The notes under the pieces: model-generated
Told to the model about the DNA's origin: nothing
Seen by the model: the letters and a program-made list of their open reading frames with translations, nothing else
Database searches by the model: none
Program-made: the position numbers and the translations under genes
In this document: in pieces, positions 4,720-28,271 of the stretch
Position numbering within the stretch: position 1 is the stretch's first letter
Layout: every line of letters begins with the position of its first letter
Assembly: GCA_913060875.1 (NCBI GenBank)
Contig: CAJXSL010000008.1
Span: forward strand, 124,001-188,000
Direction: 5' to 3'
DNA length: 64,000 nucleotides
From: an uncultured Desulfobacteraceae bacterium
GTDB lineage: Bacteria > Desulfobacterota > Desulfobacteria > Desulfobacterales > UBA5852

Positions 4720-5035
4720 ATAAAAAGGCTTTCGCATTCGGGTTGAAAGAAACGCCAACGCCTTTACCATTGCCGGACAAAAAGATGCAAGGGCGCTTTT
4801 TGGGTTTGCATCAATATTGGGGTTGCCAAGAGGGCCGGCAAGCGCTAAAGTTACCATTTTTTTATGAGTTATGTTTCGTTTGGTGTCGTTTTCAAACGGC
4901 AACAGATGATGTCGATGGAAAGACAGGATAAACTTGGTTTTTGCAAGCCATCGCGATGGTTGCGATGGCTTCGGCATGCCTGAGATCGAGCCACCGCCGG
5001 GATTAGGGCGGTGCAAATTAGACGTGGAGGTCAAT

Positions 5036-5866
5036 ATGTTCAAGATTGTCAAAAGGGAAGAAATGTCGGAAGGCACGGTCATTCTCAATGAAATTGAAGC
5101 CCCCCTGATTGCCCGGAAAGCCAAACCGGGCCAGTTCGTGATCCTGAAAGCCACCGAAGATGGGGAGCGCATTCCCCTGACCATGGCCGAGACGGACCCG
5201 GAAAAGGGCACCATAACCATCATCTATATGGTGGTGGGCAAATCCACCGCGCTGTTTAAAACGCTGCAGGTCGGCGACGGCTACCAGGATGTCATCGGCC
5301 CCCTGGGGAAACCCACCCACCTCGAGAAAGTCGGTACGGTGGTGTGTGTCGGCGGCGGCACCGGTGTGGCCGTGCTGCACCCCATCACCCGGGCCCTCAA
5401 GGAAATCGGCAATCACGTGATCTGCATTATCGGCGCCCGTTCCAAGGACCTCTTGATCCTCGAAGACAAGATGCGGGACGCGTCCACAGAACTGCATGTC
5501 TGCACGGACGACGGTTCCTACGGTCATCACGGTTTTGTGACCGATGTGCTCAAGGACGTGCTGGAGAAGGAAGATGTCAAACTGGCGGTGGCCATCGGGC
5601 CGGTGCCCATGATGAAATTCGTCTCCCTGATCACCAAGGAAAAAGAGGTCAAAACCATCGTGAGCCTCAACCCCATAATGGTGGACGGCACCGGCATGTG
5701 CGGCGGCTGCCGGGTGAGCATCGGGGGCGAGAACAAGTTCGCCTGTGTCGACGGTCCGGAATTCGACGGCCATCAGGTGGATTACGATGAACTGATGAAA
5801 CGCCTGCAGGCCTATTGCGAAGACGAAAAAACCTGTCACAACGACTTTTGCCAGATGCAATCCTGA
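5036..5866 (+). CDS. nfnA: NADH-dependent ferredoxin:NADP+ oxidoreductase small subunit / sulfide dehydrogenase-like (FAD/NAD and 2Fe-2S binding)
   Basis: MFKIVKREEMSEGTVILNEIEAP..., CVGGGTGVAVLHPITRALKE, C-terminal 2Fe-2S motif GMCGGCRVSIGGENKFACVDGPEFDGHQVD; followed by the GltA-like large subunit. Confidence 0.85.
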   Translation: MFKIVKREEMSEGTVILNEIEAPLIARKAKPGQFVILKATEDGERIPLTMAETDPEKGTITIIYMVVGKSTALFKTLQVGDGYQDVIGPLGKPTHLEKVGTVVCVGGGTGVAVLHPITRALKEIGNHVICIIGARSKDLLILEDKMRDASTELHVCTDDGSYGHHGFVTDVLKDVLEKEDVKLAVAIGPVPMMKFVSLITKEKEVKTIVSLNPIMVDGTGMCGGCRVSIGGENKFACVDGPEFDGHQVDYDELMKRLQAYCEDEKTCHNDFCQMQS

Positions 5867-5927
5867 TAAGCGAATCGATTTGCACCCTATGCGTTGTATT
5901 TTCTATTGATAGTGGAGGACTGAAATC

Positions 5928-7349
5928 ATGTCGACCCAACCCGATAAGAAAGCCAAGAAAAAACCGATTCAGCGGGTAGCCATGCCCGAACAGGCACCGG
6001 AGATCCGCCGTCGCAATTTCGAAGAAGTCCCTCTGGGATACACGCCGGAAATGGCCATGGAAGAGGCTTCGCGCTGCTTGCAGTGCAAGAAGCCGGCCTG
6101 TGTCGAAGGCTGCCCCGTCAACGTGGACATCCCGGGATTCATCAAACTGATCAAGGAAGGGGATTTTACCGGGGCCGCCCGTAATCTGTGGACCCGGAAC
6201 GCCCTGCCGGCGGTTTGCGGCCGGGTGTGCCCCCAGGAAATCCAGTGCGAGGGGCATTGCATCGTGGGCAAAAAAGGCGCCCCCGTGGCCATTGGCAACC
6301 TGGAGCGGTTTGCCGCCGATTACGAACGGGAACAAGGCTCCGGCGCCCTGCCGCCCAAGGCCGAATCTACCGGCAAAAAGGTGGCGGTGGTGGGATCCGG
6401 TCCGTCGGCCCTGACCGTGGCCGGCGACCTGGTGGTCAAGGGCCATGACGTGACCGTTCTCGAAGCCTTTCACAAACCCGGCGGCGTCCTGGTTTACGGC
6501 ATTCCGGAATTCCGTCTGCCCAAGGCCATCGTCGCCCAGGAGATCGACTTCCTGGCGCGCCAGGGGGCCAATGTGGAGTGCAACCAGGTGGTGGGCCGCA
6601 CCGTGAGCATCGATGAACTGTTCGAAGACGGCTATGATGCCGTTTATCTGGGCGTAGGGGCCGGTTTGCCCCGCTTCCTGAACGTGCCGGGCGAGAACCT
6701 GATCGGCATCCTGTCGGCCAACGAATACCTGACCCGGGCCAACCTGATGAAGGCCTACCTTTTCCCCAAAGTGGATACACCGATCCCCCATGGTAAGAAT
6801 GTGGTGGTGCTCGGCGCCGGCAACGTGGCCATGGACTCCGCCCGCACCGCCATGCGTCTCGGTGCGGAAAGCGTCAAGATTGTCTATCGCCGCTCCCGTG
6901 ATGAGATGCCGGCCCGGAACGCGGAGATTCACCATGCCGAAGAAGAAGGCATCGAGATGTTTCTCCTGACCGCACCCACCAAATTTGTCGGGGATGAAAA
7001 CGGTCGCCTGACCGGTATGGAATGCCTCCAGATGGAACTGGGCGAGCCGGACGAGTCCGGTCGGCGGCGCCCGGTGGCCAAAGAGGGCTCGGAATTCCAC
7101 ATGGATTGCGACCTGGCCATCATTGCCGTCGGATCCGGGGCCAACCCCCTGTTGACCCAGTCCACACCGGATCTCTCACTGAACAAGTGGGGCTATATCA
7201 TGGCGGACCAGGAAACCGGCAAGACCAGCAAGAAAGGGGTCTGGGCCGGGGGTGACATCGTCACCGGGGCCGCCACCGTCATCCTGGCCATGGGGGCCGG
7301 AAGGAAGGCGGCGGATTCGATTCATGACTATCTGACCTGGGGCTGGTGA
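5928..7349 (+). CDS. nfnB: NfnB / GltA-type glutamate synthase small-subunit-like oxidoreductase
   Basis: CLQCKKPACVEGCPVNVDIPGFIKLI, CGRVCPQEIQCEGHCIVGKKG, VAVVGSGPSALTVAGDLVVKGHDVTVLEA, VVVLGAGNVAMDSARTA; C-terminal GVWAGGDIVTGAATVILAMGAGRKAA. Confidence 0.88.
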   Translation: MSTQPDKKAKKKPIQRVAMPEQAPEIRRRNFEEVPLGYTPEMAMEEASRCLQCKKPACVEGCPVNVDIPGFIKLIKEGDFTGAARNLWTRNALPAVCGRVCPQEIQCEGHCIVGKKGAPVAIGNLERFAADYEREQGSGALPPKAESTGKKVAVVGSGPSALTVAGDLVVKGHDVTVLEAFHKPGGVLVYGIPEFRLPKAIVAQEIDFLARQGANVECNQVVGRTVSIDELFEDGYDAVYLGVGAGLPRFLNVPGENLIGILSANEYLTRANLMKAYLFPKVDTPIPHGKNVVVLGAGNVAMDSARTAMRLGAESVKIVYRRSRDEMPARNAEIHHAEEEGIEMFLLTAPTKFVGDENGRLTGMECLQMELGEPDESGRRRPVAKEGSEFHMDCDLAIIAVGSGANPLLTQSTPDLSLNKWGYIMADQETGKTSKKGVWAGGDIVTGAATVILAMGAGRKAADSIHDYLTWGW

Positions 7350-7356
7350 TGCCCCG

Positions 7357-7483
7357 TTGGAAGGGGCATCTTTTGCTTCCTGTCGGCGTTCTCGGCACCT
7401 GGCCATCCTCGACGTAGCGCAGCTACGCCTGCGGTGTCCAGTCACCTGCGGCCTTGACATAAAGCAAAATCTACCCCTTCCAA
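7357..7483. repeat. Second member of the palindromic intergenic repeat family
   Basis: Imperfect terminal inverted repeat TTGGAAGGGGcatctTTTGCTT / rc TTGGAAGGGGtagatTTTGCTT with nested CGTAG-cgca... GCTACG stem; core TCCTCGACGTAGC..GCTACGCCTGCGG shared with the next element. Confidence 0.7.
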
Positions 7484-7496
7484 TCAGGCCATCTGT

Positions 7497-7620
7497 TGCA
7501 GGGGCGCTTTTTGGCCCCTGCCGGCGTTCTCGCCTCCTGAGCGTCCTCGGCGTAGCGAACTACGCCTGCGGTGCTCAGTCGACTGCGGCCTTGGCAGAGA
7601 CCAAAATTCACCCCTTCCAG
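7497..7620. repeat. Third member of the palindromic intergenic repeat family
   Basis: Core CGGCGTTCTCG...TCCTCGGCGTAGCGAACTACGCCTGCGG...TGCGGCCTTG closely matches the element at 7357-7483; outer arms degenerate. Confidence 0.65.
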
Positions 7621-7709
7621 CGCAAGACACCTGGTTTTGTGGGAGGACTTGAGACGAGGGCACAACGCCGATATCGGGCGAAAAAACTTTTTTGAGATAG
7701 CTTCTAAAT

Positions 7710-7745
7710 AAACAAGCCGCCCGGCCATGGCCAGGCGGCTTGTTT
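7710..7745 (-). terminator. Likely transcription terminator hairpin of the molybdopterin oxidoreductase gene
   Basis: AAACAAGCCGCC...GGCGGCTTGTTT inverted repeat immediately downstream of the minus-strand stop. Confidence 0.65.
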
Positions 7746-7766
7746 CTCAGGGAAGACAAATGGACG

Positions 7767-10607
7767 CTACGAGGAGATTTTCTCTACCCGCGTTTTGATA
7801 TATTTCAGCAGTGGTGTTCCGCCCATGTCTTCCGTGATATTGGGTTTTTGAATCCCCGGCGGGTTTTTGCCGCCGAATTGGGGGAATTTGGGGTCGCCTT
7901 CCAGGCCCCGCTTGTGGCCGAAGCCCCCGGCCGCTCCAAGAATTCCCGGCATGATGTCCCAGGTGGGGTGGGCCTTGATTTCCACCTCGCCCCAAGGGGA
8001 CTTCAACCGGACGAGATCGCCTTCTTCGATCTGCAAGTCGTGGGCGTCCATCTTGTTGATCCACAGGGCGTTGGAGCCGTTGGCTTTCATCAGGCCGAAG
8101 TCATTGAAGGTGGAGGAGTGCTCGTGCCCGAAGACCCTGAAGTTGCCGAAGTGGAAGGGGTAGGTTGCATCGGTGGCCAGATCCGGAGGGCCGTCATGAT
8201 GATTGGGCAGCGGATCGACGCCCTTTTCCTCGGCGACCGGATTTACAAAATTGTACTTGCCGGTCTTGGTATTCCCGGATGAGCCGTAGCCGTCCGGCGG
8301 GTTGAGGGAACCCCATTCCTTGTATTTGTAATAAGCGGCCTTGTCGGTGATGACGTAGCCCTGTTCCTTGAGCTGGTCCAGGGTGCAGGGCAGTCCCCGG
8401 AGCTGGTTCTCAAAGGCTTCTTCAATATTCTTCCATGGAAAATGCTTCTCCAGGCCCATCCGGCGCGCCAGTTCCATGGTGATCCAGTACATGGGTTTGG
8501 TTTGGAAAAGCGGTTCGACCACCTCCGCCCAGTAGCTGATCTGGGCCTCGTAGAGCCAATCGGGTTTGATCTGGCTCTGTTCGAGCCAGGTGCTGTCCGG
8601 CAGGACGACATCGCACAGCAGGGCCGTGTCGCACATGAAGGCGTCGATGCAGACCTTGAATTTCATTTTCTCGATGGCTTCCGTGATGGCGGCCTGGTTG
8701 CCCCAACTCAATACCGGATCGCCGAAATAGCAGATCATGCCGTCCAGCTTTCCGGATTCCACGTCATCCAGCAGATAGGCGGGGGCCCAACCGGCCCACA
8801 TGCGCAGTTTATCCAGCTTGGGCGCATTTCCCTTGGGCGGTTTTTCCTGGCCTTCGCCCCAGGCCGGTTTCAGCTTGCGCTTGAACGGCAGGGACGGGCC
8901 GCCGGGGGCATCGTAGGTGCCGCACAGCGCGTTCAGGGCCTGCAGGGCGGCGGTGGCATACATGCCGTTGGGCACCTGGGCCAAACCGGTCCAGGACATG
9001 GCGCCCTTGGCCGTGGCCTTGGCAAATTCCAGGGCGATCCGTTCGATGGTCTCGGCGGGTACACCGCTGATTCGGGAGGCCCAGAGGGGTGTTTTGGGCA
9101 CATCGTCGTCTTCGCCCATGACCCGTTTTTTGAAGGCCTCGAATCCGTGGGTCCAGTTGGCAACGAAGTCTTTGTCGTAGAGACCGTTTTTGATGATCAC
9201 ATGGCACATGGCCAAGGCCACGGCAGCGTCGGTGGAGGGCTTGATGGGAATCCACTCGGTTGCCAGGGAGGCGGTTTCCGAACGTCGCGGGTCGAGCACC
9301 ACCAGTTTGGCGCCGCGGTCCACAGCGGCTTTCAGCTGGGCGGTTTTGCGCTGGCCGTAGGAGGTGATCACTTCGTTCATGCCGAAATGCAGGATGTAAT
9401 CCGCTTCCTGGTAATTGATCCAGGGCCGCTTGTCGCTCAGATTGTGCTCGTTGGACATGCGGTTGGCATTGTCGCACATGGGCCGGTGGGTGGTCTTGGG
9501 ACAGCCCAGGTGGTCGAACAGGGCTTCATGGATCCAGTTGGCAAAGTCATTGCCCCGCATATAGCCGATTTTCGTGGGGTCATAGGCCTTGAAATCGGTG
9601 ACCACCTTGTCCAGGGCTTCATCCCAGGAGGCTTTGCGGAAGCGGCCGTTTTCCTTGATCAGGGGGGATTTGAGCCGATAGGCGGAGTAGACATGGTGTT
9701 TGGCATTGCCGCCTTTGATGCACAGCCGTCCCCCGCCCTTGATATCGCCCCGCAGTCCGCCCGTGGACATGAGGACCCCATCCTTGGTCTTGGCGGTCAT
9801 GCCGCACAGGGCGCCGCAGGCGTAGCAGTGGGTGGGGATGGTGCGGGGCGCTGCCGGTTCGATGGTGCCGGGTTTGAGCAGGAACGACTCGGTCGCCAGG
9901 GGCAGGGTTTCCAGGGCCTTGGCCACGGCGGCCAGGTCGGCGGCGGGGTTGGCGGGGAACTCATCCTCCGAGGGAACGGAGGCCAGATGGGCCAGAAACA
10001 AGTACCCCAGGGTGAATTCGGCCAGCGCCTTGTAGAACCCCGATTGATCGGAAAAATGGAGGACCGCGCAAAACTCGGTCCGCCAGGCCATGTGACGGCG
10101 TCCGAAATCGGACCGGACCTCTGCCACCGAGAGATCGCCGGCGGCCTCCCGGCGATTCATTTCCGCCAGGAAGTCGAACTCCACCGAGATGTGGTCTTCA
10201 GGTTCGGGGTAATCCGGATCCTTGTGAAGTTTTTGCTTGCGGAGACTCTCGCGCATTTGAAACAGGGGCTCCCCATAAAGCGTGGGTTCCCGGTCGGCAT
10301 AAAAGGATTCGTAGGGCAAAACCGGGCTCTTGCCGGCATTGAGAAACAGATCCGCGTATTCAAACCGTAAGGCCTGGTAGGTGTCGACACCGGCACTGTC
10401 CATAAAATCAAACAGGGCTTTGGCGCCACGGGCCATCTCTTTAGAGTAAAGGGTTTCAGAAACCTCCTTGAGATCCCGCAAAAAGGTATCCGTTTTCATG
10501 GCTTTGAAAAGCGTTTCGGAAATTTCATCGGCAAAAACGGTTGCTAAAAACCGTTGGATATTAAATTTGGCGGCTGCCAGTTGTTTTACGTCCATCGTTT
10601 TCTCCAA
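7767..10607 (-). CDS. Fusion protein: N-terminal TorD/NarJ-type chaperone domain + C-terminal molybdopterin oxidoreductase (DMSO reductase family)
   Basis: One 946-aa ORF; N-terminal ~230 aa (RFEYADLFLNAGKSPVLPYESFYADREPTLYGEP) is TorD-like, followed by the 4Fe-4S motif HCYACGALCGMTAKTKDG...GGRLCIKGG and catalytic-subunit motifs SWDEALDKVV, HRPMCDNANRMSNEHNL, VVLDPRRSETASLATEWIPIKPSTDAAVALAM, STWLEQSQIKPD. Confidence 0.85.
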   Translation of the reverse strand: MEKTMDVKQLAAAKFNIQRFLATVFADEISETLFKAMKTDTFLRDLKEVSETLYSKEMARGAKALFDFMDSAGVDTYQALRFEYADLFLNAGKSPVLPYESFYADREPTLYGEPLFQMRESLRKQKLHKDPDYPEPEDHISVEFDFLAEMNRREAAGDLSVAEVRSDFGRRHMAWRTEFCAVLHFSDQSGFYKALAEFTLGYLFLAHLASVPSEDEFPANPAADLAAVAKALETLPLATESFLLKPGTIEPAAPRTIPTHCYACGALCGMTAKTKDGVLMSTGGLRGDIKGGGRLCIKGGNAKHHVYSAYRLKSPLIKENGRFRKASWDEALDKVVTDFKAYDPTKIGYMRGNDFANWIHEALFDHLGCPKTTHRPMCDNANRMSNEHNLSDKRPWINYQEADYILHFGMNEVITSYGQRKTAQLKAAVDRGAKLVVLDPRRSETASLATEWIPIKPSTDAAVALAMCHVIIKNGLYDKDFVANWTHGFEAFKKRVMGEDDDVPKTPLWASRISGVPAETIERIALEFAKATAKGAMSWTGLAQVPNGMYATAALQALNALCGTYDAPGGPSLPFKRKLKPAWGEGQEKPPKGNAPKLDKLRMWAGWAPAYLLDDVESGKLDGMICYFGDPVLSWGNQAAITEAIEKMKFKVCIDAFMCDTALLCDVVLPDSTWLEQSQIKPDWLYEAQISYWAEVVEPLFQTKPMYWITMELARRMGLEKHFPWKNIEEAFENQLRGLPCTLDQLKEQGYVITDKAAYYKYKEWGSLNPPDGYGSSGNTKTGKYNFVNPVAEEKGVDPLPNHHDGPPDLATDATYPFHFGNFRVFGHEHSSTFNDFGLMKANGSNALWINKMDAHDLQIEEGDLVRLKSPWGEVEIKAHPTWDIMPGILGAAGGFGHKRGLEGDPKFPQFGGKNPPGIQKPNITEDMGGTPLLKYIKTRVEKISS

Positions 10608-10622
10608 TCCAAGGATAATGGC

Positions 10623-10994
10623 TTACAGGTTGAGACTGCCTTTGATGGTGCTTTTGCCTTTCAACAGGGCGCGCTTGAGACAGGCGTCCAGTTCTTCTTT
10701 GACGATGGGTTTGAACAGCACCGAACAGGGGGCCCATCGAAGCGCCCGGCGGACTTCCATGATTTCAGGTGCATCGCAGAAGACAACCACCTTGAAATTG
10801 GGTGAAATTTCCCTCAGGGGTTTGATCATATCGACGCCTTCCGTCCCGACCAGCAAGGCGATATCCACCTTGTTGCTCTGGGCGTAGTCGACGGTTTCGC
10901 CAGCATCGCTGAACGATGCGACGTCGTGACCCATGGACGTCACGGCCTCCCATTGCATTTCAGGGTCGGGATCGTAAGCCAGTATTTGTGCCAA
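10623..10994 (-). CDS. Receiver-like (CheY-fold) protein, apparently degenerate
   Basis: MAQILAYDPDPEMQWEAVTSMGHDVASFSDAGETVDYAQ...IALLVGTEGVD...KVVVFCDAPE...APCSVLFKPI; receiver-like layout but no Asp at the expected phospho-acceptor position. Confidence 0.65.
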   Translation of the reverse strand: MAQILAYDPDPEMQWEAVTSMGHDVASFSDAGETVDYAQSNKVDIALLVGTEGVDMIKPLREISPNFKVVVFCDAPEIMEVRRALRWAPCSVLFKPIVKEELDACLKRALLKGKSTIKGSLNL

Positions 10995-11140
10995 TGTGTG
11001 CCTCCTTATGATGAATAAAGTTGGGATTCCTCCATAGCATCCTCAGTTTTTTTTCTTGCAGCCATCGTCTTTCCAAAGATCGGAAACGGCGGATGGCGTG
11101 GCTTGCCATTTTAAAACCCTGCCGGCGGCCGTCCGCGCGG

Positions 11141-11503
11141 TTATGACGAACGGGCCGGATACGGCCGCTTTCTGCCTGGCATCTTGAAACATTCCTCCCG
11201 AAGCCGATGATGGATATAGGCATCCACGATGGTGTCCGGTGCGCCGGCAATGCCGCTGATGATGTGGATGCCGTGGCTTTCGATATAGTGCGACATCAGG
11301 TCGCTGACGCCCGCGCAGATGATATGGGTGACGCCCCAGCGGGCTAACGTTTCCGCCCGTTCCGGGGGCGTCATTTTTTCCAGAGAAACCGTCCTGCGCC
11401 GGGCGGCCTGCCCTTTGTCGATATCCACAAGCATCACGTGGTTGCAGGCATCGAGTACCGGCGATATTCGTGCTTGAAATATGGGCATCGCGATGCGGTC
11501 CAT
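11141..11503 (-). CDS. Dinitrogenase iron-molybdenum cofactor (NifX/NafY-like) family protein
   Basis: MDRIAMPIFQARISPVLDACNHVMLVDIDKG...GVTHIICAGVSDLMSHYIESHGIHIISGIAGAPDTIVDAYI fits the Nitro_FeMo-Co fold family. Confidence 0.75.
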   Translation of the reverse strand: MDRIAMPIFQARISPVLDACNHVMLVDIDKGQAARRRTVSLEKMTPPERAETLARWGVTHIICAGVSDLMSHYIESHGIHIISGIAGAPDTIVDAYIHHRLREECFKMPGRKRPYPARSS

Positions 11504-11631
11504 AATTTATGTCGCTGCGGCCAACACGATGGTCTTCATGATCCATACGCCGGTTGAAGCGGAAGGGGTGTCTTTCTGCACTGGAATGCACCCGTCCCGT
11601 GGCGGCCCTTGAGTTTAATAATGGAACATGT

Positions 11632-11647
11632 AACAAAAGTCGTGCCA
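11632..11647 (-). promoter_or_regulatory. Candidate sigma-54 (-24/-12) promoter for the NifX-like/receiver/TorD-molybdoenzyme cluster
   Basis: Minus strand TGGCACGACTTTTGTT: GG-N10-GT spacing, good -24 element, -12 deviates (GT for GC). Confidence 0.5.
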
Positions 11648-11821
11648 ATGGATGAATGTCGGGGGCGTTATTGGATAACCAACTGTATTTGTATAAAAAA
11701 TTAAGTTTTTATTTGGATTGACAGTGCATGGAGGGATGCGGTAGAGGATGCATAGTGAACCAAAAACAAAACCAATCGGATGCAAATTGGGACCCTTGGT
11801 GCCATTTGGGGAGATACCGTT

Positions 11822-13186
11822 ATGCGGACATTCGAAAATGGGGCTTATCACCACTGTGCGGTCATTCTCGACAGCATTGCCGACGGGGTTCTCACGGTTG
11901 ACAACCAGATGGTGATTACGGCCTTCAACCGTTCGGCCCAGCAGATTACCCGCGTGCCCCGGGAAGAGGCCATCGGACGCAAGTGCTTCGAAGTCATGCG
12001 CGGCGAAATGTGCGAATCCGAATGCTGCATCAAAACCACCATGGAGACGGGCGAGCGCTGCAACAATATCCCGGTCTATATCCTGCGCGCCGACAACAAA
12101 CGGATTCCCGTCAGTGTAACGACCAGCATTCTGCGTGATGAACGGGGGACACCGATCGGGGCAGTCGAAGTCTTTCGGGACCTTTCGGAAATCCATACCC
12201 TCCGGCAGGCCTACCGGAGGATCCATCGCTTTGAAGATATCGTCAGCAAAAACCACCGGATGATGAAACTGTTCTCCGTTTTGCCGATGGTGGCCTCCAG
12301 CCGCAGTACGGTCCTGATCGAGGGGGCCAGCGGAACGGGCAAGGAACTGGTGGCCAAGGCCATCCACAACCAAAGCGGCGACCGCGAGGCCCCCTTCGTG
12401 GCGGTCAATTGCGGTGCGCTGCCCGAAACCCTGATCGAAGCGGAGCTCTTTGGCTACCATGCGGGGGCGTTTACCGACGCCAAACGCAACAAGCCGGGCC
12501 TGTTTGCCATGGCCGGCGAGGGAACCCTTTTCCTGGACGAAATCGGCGACATCTCGCCCTCCACCCAGGTTCGTCTCCTCCGCGTTTTACAGAACCGCAC
12601 CTATACGCCGCTGGGTTCGAACGAAGTCTGCACCTTGAAGGCCCGGGTCATCGCCGCCACGCATCAGAGCCTGAAAGAACTGGTGGATGCCAGGCGGTTC
12701 CGCGAAGATCTCTACTACCGCATCAATGTGATCCGCCTTTCGCTGCCGAACCTGGCCGAGCGCAAGGAAGACATCCCGATCCTGGCGGAGCATTTCGTGG
12801 AAAAGTTCAACTCCTTGACCGGCAAGCACATCGTGGGGGTCACGGACGAAGCCCTGGCGGCCTTTGCCCTGCACGATTGGCCCGGCAACATCCGGGAGCT
12901 CGAAAACGCCATCGAGCACGCCTTTATCCTGTGCAACGACAAGTTTATCGACCTTCCGCACCTGCCGGAAACCATCGTACCCCGGCCGACCAAGTTGATC
13001 GGCGCGGGTGTGCTGACTTTGCAGGACATCGAAAAGCAGGCCATTGCCGACGCACTGATCCGCAATGACGGCCGCCGGATGGCAACCGCCCGGGAGCTCG
13101 GCATCCATAAAAACACGCTGCGGCGCAAAATCCAGGCTTACAACCTCGAGGGGGTGGAAACGTCCGGGGAGCGTCCTGAAAGTTGA
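11822..13186 (+). CDS. PAS-domain sigma-54-dependent transcriptional activator
   Basis: PAS (GVLTVDNQMVITAFNRSAQQITRVPREEAIGRKCFEV), AAA+ (LIEGASGTGKELVAKAIH, GAFTDAKRNKPGLFAMAGEGTLFLDEIGDISPSTQVRLLRVLQ), Fis-type C-terminus (ATARELGIHKNTLRRKIQAYNL). Confidence 0.92.
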   Translation: MRTFENGAYHHCAVILDSIADGVLTVDNQMVITAFNRSAQQITRVPREEAIGRKCFEVMRGEMCESECCIKTTMETGERCNNIPVYILRADNKRIPVSVTTSILRDERGTPIGAVEVFRDLSEIHTLRQAYRRIHRFEDIVSKNHRMMKLFSVLPMVASSRSTVLIEGASGTGKELVAKAIHNQSGDREAPFVAVNCGALPETLIEAELFGYHAGAFTDAKRNKPGLFAMAGEGTLFLDEIGDISPSTQVRLLRVLQNRTYTPLGSNEVCTLKARVIAATHQSLKELVDARRFREDLYYRINVIRLSLPNLAERKEDIPILAEHFVEKFNSLTGKHIVGVTDEALAAFALHDWPGNIRELENAIEHAFILCNDKFIDLPHLPETIVPRPTKLIGAGVLTLQDIEKQAIADALIRNDGRRMATARELGIHKNTLRRKIQAYNLEGVETSGERPES

Positions 13187-13199
13187 ACCGCACGGCGGA

Positions 13200-13748
13200 T
13201 CAGCGGGGCAATCGGATGATGCTGTCGAAGTCCTGGATGAGGCGGTCGGTGAGGCGTCGTTCCTGCCTTGACAGGCGATAGTCGGGGAAGCTGCTGCCGT
13301 AATAGGCGTTGATCAGAGCGGTTTCGATCGGTTGGACGACCGCCCGCAGGCGATCGTAGTCACCGGCCTGCAGATAGAGCGTGACGTCGTTGATGATGAG
13401 AATACCGCAACCGGGTATGTGCGGGTCCTGAAACAGCTTTTCAATGGCTTGGGCGTTGGCGGCGGCCAGGGTTTGGGCCTCTTCTTCCGTGCGGGCGCTC
13501 AACCGCGGCGGTACAATTTCGGCGACGCGATAGATCCCCTGGAAATCCGCCGGCCGCTGGATGCGGCCGCCGATGCGCCCGCCGGTGACCGGCGCCAGAT
13601 CGAGAACGACCACTTCTTCCGAACGGCCCTGGCGGCACCAGGCCGTGAGAACGGCTTCGGTGAGGCGCGTTTTTCCGGTGTTGACCTCCCCGATAATGAG
13701 GGTATGCCGTCCGTCATAAACATCGGTGTTCATAACATCCCCGGGCAT
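13200..13748 (-). CDS. Small P-loop NTPase linked to the ThiW/ECF transporter operon
   Basis: Walker A IIGEVNTGKTRL, GILIINDVTLYLQAG; GGGAG ribosome-binding site upstream of ATG at 13748; start overlaps nothing but lies ~30 bp after the ECF T-component gene. Confidence 0.7.
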   Translation of the reverse strand: MPGDVMNTDVYDGRHTLIIGEVNTGKTRLTEAVLTAWCRQGRSEEVVVLDLAPVTGGRIGGRIQRPADFQGIYRVAEIVPPRLSARTEEEAQTLAAANAQAIEKLFQDPHIPGCGILIINDVTLYLQAGDYDRLRAVVQPIETALINAYYGSSFPDYRLSRQERRLTDRLIQDFDSIIRLPR

Positions 13749-13776
13749 GTTCTTTCTCCCGTTTTTTTCGAATCCC

Positions 13777-14436
13777 TCAACGGACAACGAAGGTCGCCAG
13801 GCCCCATACCGCGGCCCAGCCCCCGATGATGGCCAGCCAGTCCAGGACCCCCATGCGATAGACCTTGCGGAAGCTTCGGCCGGTGCGGCCGAACCCCCGG
13901 GCCTCCATGGCTTCGGCCAGGGCGTCGGCCATTTGAAAGGACTGGATCAGCAGGGGGGTCAGCAGGGCCGGATAGTTTTTGAAGGCCCGCCAGCCGGGTT
14001 TCAGGACAATCCCCCGGGCCTGCTGGGCCTCGATCACGGATCGCGTTTTGCGGCCGAGAACCGGTGCGAATTGCAGGGCGGCCGTCATGACGAAGGCCAC
14101 CGGAAACGGCAGGCCGGCCCGGACGAGGCTGTTGCCGAGGTCTTCCGGGTCGGTGCCGGCAAAGAATACGAAAAAGGCGGTCGTAATGGCGATCAGGCTC
14201 ACGGCGGCCGACCGTCCGGTGGGCAGATCGGTGGACCACCAGGTGACGCCGCCGAAGAAAAGCGCCATGGGGGCCAGCATGGCCAGCCAGCGCAGATAGG
14301 CTTTGAACTGCCCCATGGCGAGGACGGCCCCGAGGAGCACCGCCCACTGGGCCAGAAGCCACTCGGGCTTGCGCGTCAACGCGATGAGCGTGCCGTAGGC
14401 CAGGGTGAGCAGCAGTTTGGTGCGCGGATCAAGCAT
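13777..14436 (-). CDS. ECF transporter T component (CbiQ-like transmembrane protein)
   Basis: MLDPRTKLLLTLAYGTLIAL, hydrophobic segments, ARGIVLKPGWRAFKNYPALLTPLLIQSFQMADALAEAMEARGFG. Confidence 0.85.
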   Translation of the reverse strand: MLDPRTKLLLTLAYGTLIALTRKPEWLLAQWAVLLGAVLAMGQFKAYLRWLAMLAPMALFFGGVTWWSTDLPTGRSAAVSLIAITTAFFVFFAGTDPEDLGNSLVRAGLPFPVAFVMTAALQFAPVLGRKTRSVIEAQQARGIVLKPGWRAFKNYPALLTPLLIQSFQMADALAEAMEARGFGRTGRSFRKVYRMGVLDWLAIIGGWAAVWGLATFVVR

Positions 14437-26672: not shown

Positions 26673-28271
26673 TCAGCCATGCTGAAAGGAACGGATATGC
26701 TCCGGTATACCCGGGAGGTAGTCGCCGGTCCATGGTTCGATCCGGCCGACCTGGCAGGCTTCGGGGAGGTGGGAGCGGATGGATGCGAAAACCTCGGGCC
26801 GGCAGGCAAAGAGGAGTTCGTAGTCTTCCCCGCCCGTCAGAACGATTGCTTCCGGATCCAAACGGTCAGTATCACAGAAACGCCTCAGGTCAGGGTGCTG
26901 GGCCATGGCTTGGGGCGCAAGATGGATGGACACTTCGGCCGCCCGGGCAATATGGGCGGCATCGCCGGCCAGGCCGTCGCTGATGTCCATAGCACAGTTC
27001 ACACCATGCTCGGCCAGCACGGCGGCAGCGTCGAAGCGGGCCCGGGGCTGTTGGAACCGTTTAACAAGGTCGGGGAACCGGTCGTCGCCCTTTTGCAGGG
27101 CCAGCAGGCCGCCGCGGGCCAGTCCCAGAGGGCCGGTGGCGTACAGCCCGTCGCCGGGACGGGCCGCCCCGCGCCGGGGGAAAATGTCCGCCCGTCCTTC
27201 GCCCACCGCGAACAAGTCCAGGCACAATCGTCCGGCTCGGGCGATGTTGCCCCCGCCCATCCGGCAGCCATGGCGTTCCAGGGCCGCATAGAGGCCATCG
27301 TAGATGCGCTGGATGGTGGCCTCGGAGATGGCCGCCGGCAGTCCCAGGTTGATAAACAGGCTGACAGGCCGGGCATAGGAAGCGGCCAGATCGCTTAAGG
27401 TCACTTCGACGGCGCGTTCCCCAAGGGCTTCGGGCGTGAGCCAGTCCGCCTGAAAATGGATGCCTTCCCGCTGGGTGTCGGTGGTGATTACCGGAAACGC
27501 CAGAGGCGCCAGCCGGGCTGCGTCGTCCCCCGGGGGGATGACCGTGTTGTCTTCCCCGGGCTTTTGCAGGGCCGGCGCCACCAGGGCCCGGATCAATTGG
27601 AATTCGTCCTGCCAGCCGTTTTCGATGAAAGTTCGGGGGGCGCAGTCACAGGCCTCGGCCAGGCGGGCGGCGGCCGTTGCCGGGTCGGCCGCCCGGGAGA
27701 TGGCGCTGATGACCGCCACCCCGGCGGCCCCCGCCCGCAGGCAATCGCCGGCGTGCTCCGCCGTGATGCCGCCGATGGCCACCACCGGCAGCGGTACCTG
27801 GGCGACGATTTCCTTGAGGCCATGGAGGCCCCGGACCGGTTTGGCATCGGCTTTGGTGCCGGTTGCAAATACAGGGCCGCTGCCCACGTAATCACACGGC
27901 GCCAGGTCGGTCTCCCGAAGTTCTTCCGGGGTGGAAACCGATATGCCGATGATGGCCGCGGGCCCGAGGATATGGCGGGCTTCCCGCGGATTGCCGTCTT
28001 CCTGCCCCAGGTGAACCCCATCCGCACCGACAGCCTTGGCCAGCAAGACATCGTCGTTGACTACCAGGGGGACACCGTTGACGCGGCAGAGATCGCGGAT
28101 ATGGCGCAATTCGTCAAAATTCGACAGCTGGAACTGCTTGTGGCGGTATTGGATAAAGCTGGCGCCGCCTTTAAGCGCGGCGCGAACCTGGTCCAGGGGA
28201 GATGCGGCCGGCGCCTGATGGTCGGAGATGAAATAAAATCTTAGGGCGCGGGTCAATCGTGTAGGATGCAT
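26673..28271 (-). CDS. thiE/thiL: Bifunctional thiamine-phosphate synthase / thiamine-monophosphate kinase (ThiE-ThiL fusion)
   Basis: N-terminal ThiE (FIQYRHK, VPLVVNDDVLLAKAVGADGVHLGQED, DYVGSGPVFATGTKADA, VVAIGGITAEHAGDCLRAGAAGVAVISAI) followed in frame by ThiL (PPGDDAARL, TTDTQREGIHFQADWLTPEALGERAVEVTLSDLAA, GGGNIARAG, MDISDGLAGDAAHI, LTGGEDYELLFACRP). Confidence 0.93.
   Translation of the reverse strand: MHPTRLTRALRFYFISDHQAPAASPLDQVRAALKGGASFIQYRHKQFQLSNFDELRHIRDLCRVNGVPLVVNDDVLLAKAVGADGVHLGQEDGNPREARHILGPAAIIGISVSTPEELRETDLAPCDYVGSGPVFATGTKADAKPVRGLHGLKEIVAQVPLPVVAIGGITAEHAGDCLRAGAAGVAVISAISRAADPATAAARLAEACDCAPRTFIENGWQDEFQLIRALVAPALQKPGEDNTVIPPGDDAARLAPLAFPVITTDTQREGIHFQADWLTPEALGERAVEVTLSDLAASYARPVSLFINLGLPAAISEATIQRIYDGLYAALERHGCRMGGGNIARAGRLCLDLFAVGEGRADIFPRRGAARPGDGLYATGPLGLARGGLLALQKGDDRFPDLVKRFQQPRARFDAAAVLAEHGVNCAMDISDGLAGDAAHIARAAEVSIHLAPQAMAQHPDLRRFCDTDRLDPEAIVLTGGEDYELLFACRPEVFASIRSHLPEACQVGRIEPWTGDYLPGIPEHIRSFQHG

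Follow-up and report, generated by a model that had tools for sequence, protein, structure and literature searches.

The window, by which we mean the whole 64,000-nucleotide stretch of DNA that was analysed, encodes a single chain in which a TorD-type chaperone domain precedes a molybdopterin oxidoreductase catalytic subunit, and the features of this chain suggest that it is probably a cytoplasmic Mo- or W-bisMGD oxidoreductase that keeps the chaperone as a permanent N-terminal domain and is loaded with its cofactor in cis. The in-frame fusion, which had been proposed in a first, sequence-only reading of this DNA, was borne out by a minus-strand ORF (7767-10607) with no internal stop and by Pfam matches in both halves. 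Most likely the start is the ATG at 10595 (ttGGAGaaaacgATG), which is preceded by GGAG, and not the TTG at 10607, which is disfavoured because it lies inside the Shine-Dalgarno stretch. From stop to stop the frame has 951 codons, so that there is no room for a signal peptide ahead of the fusion. The stretch that runs from residue 228 up to the first cluster cysteine has an almost constant length in the family (28-29 residues), and its sequence is variable. The features of the locus are collected in Table 1; an Rfam scan of positions 7300-13800 gave no match.

Table 1. Features of the fusion gene and its upstream region, in window coordinates.
Feature	Position	Strand	Basis or remark
TorD-molybdopterin oxidoreductase fusion	7767..10595	-	942 aa, ATG start at 10595
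TorD/DmsD-type chaperone domain, residues 1-232	9900..10595	-	PF02613, 1n1c match, model
Linker, residues 233-252 (~20 residues)	9840..9899	-	Family alignment
Catalytic part, residues 253-941	7773..9839	-	4Fe-4S site, then bis-MGD domains
C374 codon, candidate Mo/W ligand (MCDN)	9474..9476	-	Invariant in alignment A1
Receiver-domain gene, 27 nt upstream of the fusion	10623..10994	-	Pfam and neighbourhood comparison
NifX/orange-protein-like small protein	11141..11503	-	PF02579 24.3 bits, below cutoff 26.3; C-terminal part of MrpORP model
Sigma-54-type promoter-like site, TGGCACGACTTTTGTT	11632..11647	-	One mismatch to consensus
Divergent PAS / sigma-54 activator gene	11780..13186	+	Pfam

The Nitrate_red_del family of Pfam (PF02613) matches residues 54-177 with an E value of 5e-23 (82 bits against a cutoff of 22.2), and when the N-terminus was compared by sequence with solved structures the best match was TorD (1n1c, E 5.5e-13), followed by other REMPs including DmsD. 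Modelled alone with 18 relatives, the N-terminal domain is all-helical with a pLDDT of 91, and a Foldseek search with this model returned DmsD structures as its top three PDB matches (TM up to 0.70 of the target) and as the only convincing ones. Structure prediction has thus upheld the TorD fold that had been claimed for this region. The N-terminal region is also confident in the model of the whole chain, although much of the catalytic core there is not; the mean pLDDT of that model is 65.7, with several cofactor-site segments below 50, and it is too weak to place the domains relative to each other. Among the positions invariant in the TorD part of the 19-member alignment are Y80, F84, P94, Y95, S97, and H135. 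The domain shares fold and family match with the TorD/DmsD/NarJ chaperones (REMPs, PF02613) and it occupies the position expected of a signal-peptide-bound chaperone; however, the known members are separate proteins, whereas here the domain is covalently joined and has no Tat signal to guard. As the classical members are separate proteins, the N-terminal part is a TorD-type domain and not a TorD protein.

Residues 253-941 are a complete catalytic subunit of the DMSO-reductase (Mo/W-bisMGD) family with one [4Fe-4S] cluster, in which Molybdop_Fe4S4 (PF04879, 252-304), Molybdopterin (PF00384, 307-711, E 5e-36), and Molydop_binding (PF01568, 815-894) follow one another, all above the curated Pfam cutoffs. 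The cluster site (C257-x2-C260-x3-C264 ... C292) has its four cysteines invariant in alignment A1, and C374, within HRPMCDNANR, is invariant in the 19 sequences and aligned with the metal-ligand cysteine of PsrA and acetylene hydratase, which makes it a candidate Mo/W ligand. Compared with solved structures, the catalytic part is closest to PsrA/thiosulfate reductase (2vpw, 231 bits), then to acetylene hydratase (2e7z) and then to formate dehydrogenases. In a tree built by a quick method, supported by SH-aLRT only and with the acetylene hydratase and PsrA rows taken from the alignments of that comparison, the fusions group as a single clade (SH-aLRT 100), which is placed on the PsrA/PhsA side (SH-aLRT 99), apart from acetylene hydratase.

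None of the named enzymes that we considered accounts for this catalytic part. PsrA/PhsA (2vpw), besides being the best solved match, has in common with the fusion the single 4Fe-4S cluster and the position of the cysteine ligand, but enzymes of this type are exported and function together with Fe-S and membrane subunits. This identity was rejected because the fusion scores 256.8 bits against a cutoff of 694 for the PhsA equivalog of NCBIfam, has neither a Tat signal nor adjacent Fe-S or NrfD subunits, and lacks the PsrA signature residues: H145 and R332 of PsrA align with Gly348 and Gly537. Acetylene hydratase (2e7z) is likewise a single subunit with one 4Fe-4S cluster and a cysteine ligand; it was discarded because the Asp that follows its second cluster cysteine (CQSCD), the essential Asp13, is Gly, Asn, or Leu in all the fusion members, and because it occupies its own branch of the tree, away from the fusions. 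The formate dehydrogenase signature consists of a Cys/Sec-His pair and an active-site Arg; the fusion has Cys-Asp where E. coli FdhF has Sec-His, carries Gly537 at the position aligned with PsrA R332, and misses the Fdh-alpha cutoff. Nitrate reductases (NapA/NasC/NarG) were excluded as well, the best NCBIfam equivalog being NasC with 165.9 bits against a cutoff of 1100. The nearest unfused relatives (L025 and L026), which are 28-31% identical, are encoded next to a Fe-S or NrfD subunit; in L026 a Tat signal is present as well (TRRTFVKLAAV). Both depart from the usual cluster motif in having no third cysteine (CNxCGGQ[ST]G).

The absence of a Tat signal and of an adjacent Fe-S or membrane-anchor subunit, both noted in the sequence-only reading, held for the window and for the whole family. 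No Tat signal was found in the 20 loci, in which the starts and the upstream open frames were inspected. These frames extend at most 22 residues upstream of the starts used, the annotated N-terminus of L045 has 16 further residues, and a bare RR pair in the upstream stretch of four loci comes without the hydrophobic stretch required for a Tat signal. No Psr/Dms-type Fe-S or membrane (NrfD) subunit is encoded next to the fusion in the window or in other members, and a ferredoxin-type motif occurs within 5 kb in only three loci, in a DUF362/ferredoxin-domain protein. The fusion enzyme is, we infer, probably cytoplasmic.

TorD-type chaperones are thought to have two jobs, guarding the Tat signal and loading the molybdenum cofactor. 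TorD is reported to assist Moco insertion into apoTorA also when the signal peptide is absent (PMC10609526). Most simply, the fusion would derive from a PsrA/PhsA-like subunit that was once exported by the Tat route and has since been deprived of both signal and partners, and therefore only the cofactor-loading role of TorD would still be needed. The chaperone domain would then bind the apo form of the catalytic part in cis, just before the 4Fe-4S domain, hold it competent for bis-MGD insertion and remain attached afterwards. Electrons, in the case of a redox reaction, might be supplied by ferredoxin or another soluble donor.

The search for the same arrangement in other genomes found it, full length and unbroken, in 19 further loci, namely L015, with 96% identity, and the 18 of alignment A1, with 51-84%, which argues against a missed separating stop; because of this recurrence the fusion is far beyond chance. 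Desulfosarcina widdelii PP31, whose chromosome is finished, and the MAG Eth-SRB2 are among the carriers. The distribution is patchy, with 11 carriers, the window's own genome included, among the 395 genomes sampled from its phylum, and in 385 genomes of this phylum all the PF02613 frames of at least 900 codons, among the matches listed, belong to the fusion family. At E <= 1e-90 there was no fusion among 300 genomes from the phylum to which G398, a Selenomonadales genome, belongs, or among 249 from that of G397, a Sneathiella genome, searches that were run without a positive control and so bound the distribution rather than exclude the fusion there. Two kinds of apparent exceptions were discarded: a TAA inside the gene of G293 is read as its normal end, since the ORF stops at that codon, and the long open frames of G056 and G360 are not further fusions but separate TorD genes overlapped by ORFs in another frame in GC-rich DNA. 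In close pairs pN/pS is 0.06-0.22 for the TorD domain and 0.05-0.12 for the catalytic part, and both domains are under purifying selection.

The receiver gene and the fusion are probably in one operon, whose first gene is possibly that of the NifX/orange-protein-like protein. In eight loci from two deep branches the next gene upstream of the fusion, in the same orientation, encodes a receiver domain, and many members are without it; the window, L013, and L014 have a deletion of the segment with its phospho-acceptor Asp, which L044, L046, and L047 keep. The sigma-54-like site, between the NifX/orange-protein-like gene and the divergent activator gene, is weak alone, as 1.5 such sites are expected by chance in the window. 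Of the 20 loci searched, about half have similar upstream sites, which is suggestive at most, as these loci are mostly close relatives. The fusion often has histidine kinases and sigma-54 activators nearby, and in one clade a TauE/SafE-type transporter and two small proteins predicted to lie in the membrane are encoded divergently; genomes of this kind commonly carry these families, so the association with regulators and transporters is suggestive only. Convergent with the fusion, the window also contains a two-gene FAD/NAD oxidoreductase pair (5018-7349, plus strand) that resembles sulfide dehydrogenase/NfnAB. This pair, which is not conserved beside other members, is a possible soluble electron source. 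Elsewhere in the window a single ORF (26673-28271, minus strand), judged by eye from its translation only, resembles thiamine-phosphate synthase plus thiamine-monophosphate kinase (ThiE-ThiL).

Three other explanations were weighed against a chaperone that works in cis. The TorD domain could have ceased to be a chaperone and serve in docking, oligomerisation or regulation, perhaps tied to the upstream receiver protein. This agrees with the receiver gene of the eight loci and the loss of its phospho-acceptor segment in the window's lineage, and also with the faster divergence of the TorD domain between deep clades (29-34% identity against 58-74% for the catalytic part), an observation that counts to some extent against loading in cis; however, many TorD positions are invariant, the Pfam and fold scores are strong and the receiver neighbour is missing in many members, and we consider a changed role improbable. 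It is quite improbable too that the fused domain also, or mainly, serves other molybdoenzymes in trans. The window's genome has a single PF02613 gene, the fusion, for 13 PF00384 matches and several other fusion-bearing genomes (e.g., G401) show no other TorD, but a second, separate TorD is present in the fusion-bearing genomes G072, G145, G269, G357, G376, and G400. Moreover, formate dehydrogenases mature with proteins other than TorD, and given these a single TorD need not leave a gap. Finally, an assembly error or a decayed gene, with two genes joined by a missed stop, is refuted by the further loci, the finished D. widdelii chromosome among them, and disfavoured by purifying selection on both parts, and as nothing was found in its favour we regard it as practically certain to be wrong.

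A chaperone-type domain joined to an enzyme of this superfamily has precedents. A survey of molybdoproteins reported that the delta and gamma subunits of nitrate reductase are fused with alpha in some bacteria (PMC6147048); there, too, one chain carries a delta/TorD-type domain together with an alpha subunit of the DMSO-reductase family. In contrast to those proteins, the family described here falls below every nitrate reductase cutoff, has no gamma part and forms its own lineage. As delta-alpha fusions had already been reported, the arrangement is known and what is new is its occurrence in this enzyme family. The MOLY cluster of sulfur disproportionators (MolyA/B/C; PMC12998232) also combines a molybdopterin enzyme and a TorD-type chaperone in Desulfobacterota, but it consists of three separate genes with a predicted extracellular location, whereas the fusion is one chain with neither a B subunit nor a Tat signal, and because of this different architecture we rejected that identity. 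Among open-licence papers we found nothing specific on a TorD-fused enzyme, and an earlier description is possible.

Going further than a chaperone acting in cis, these proteins could represent a separate class of cytoplasmic Mo/W enzymes of Desulfobacterota that consist of a single chain, derived from exported PsrA-like enzymes by replacement of the Tat signal and partners with a permanent chaperone, with a reaction new to the superfamily and under the control of the adjacent receiver and sigma-54 system; taken as a whole we find this extension doubtful. A conserved fused TorD domain without a Tat signal separates the guarding of the signal from cofactor loading, and the fusion is a one-chain system in which the latter is open to experiment. 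With it, bacteria of the sulfate-reducer type are seen to have a molybdoenzyme family that is as yet without a name.
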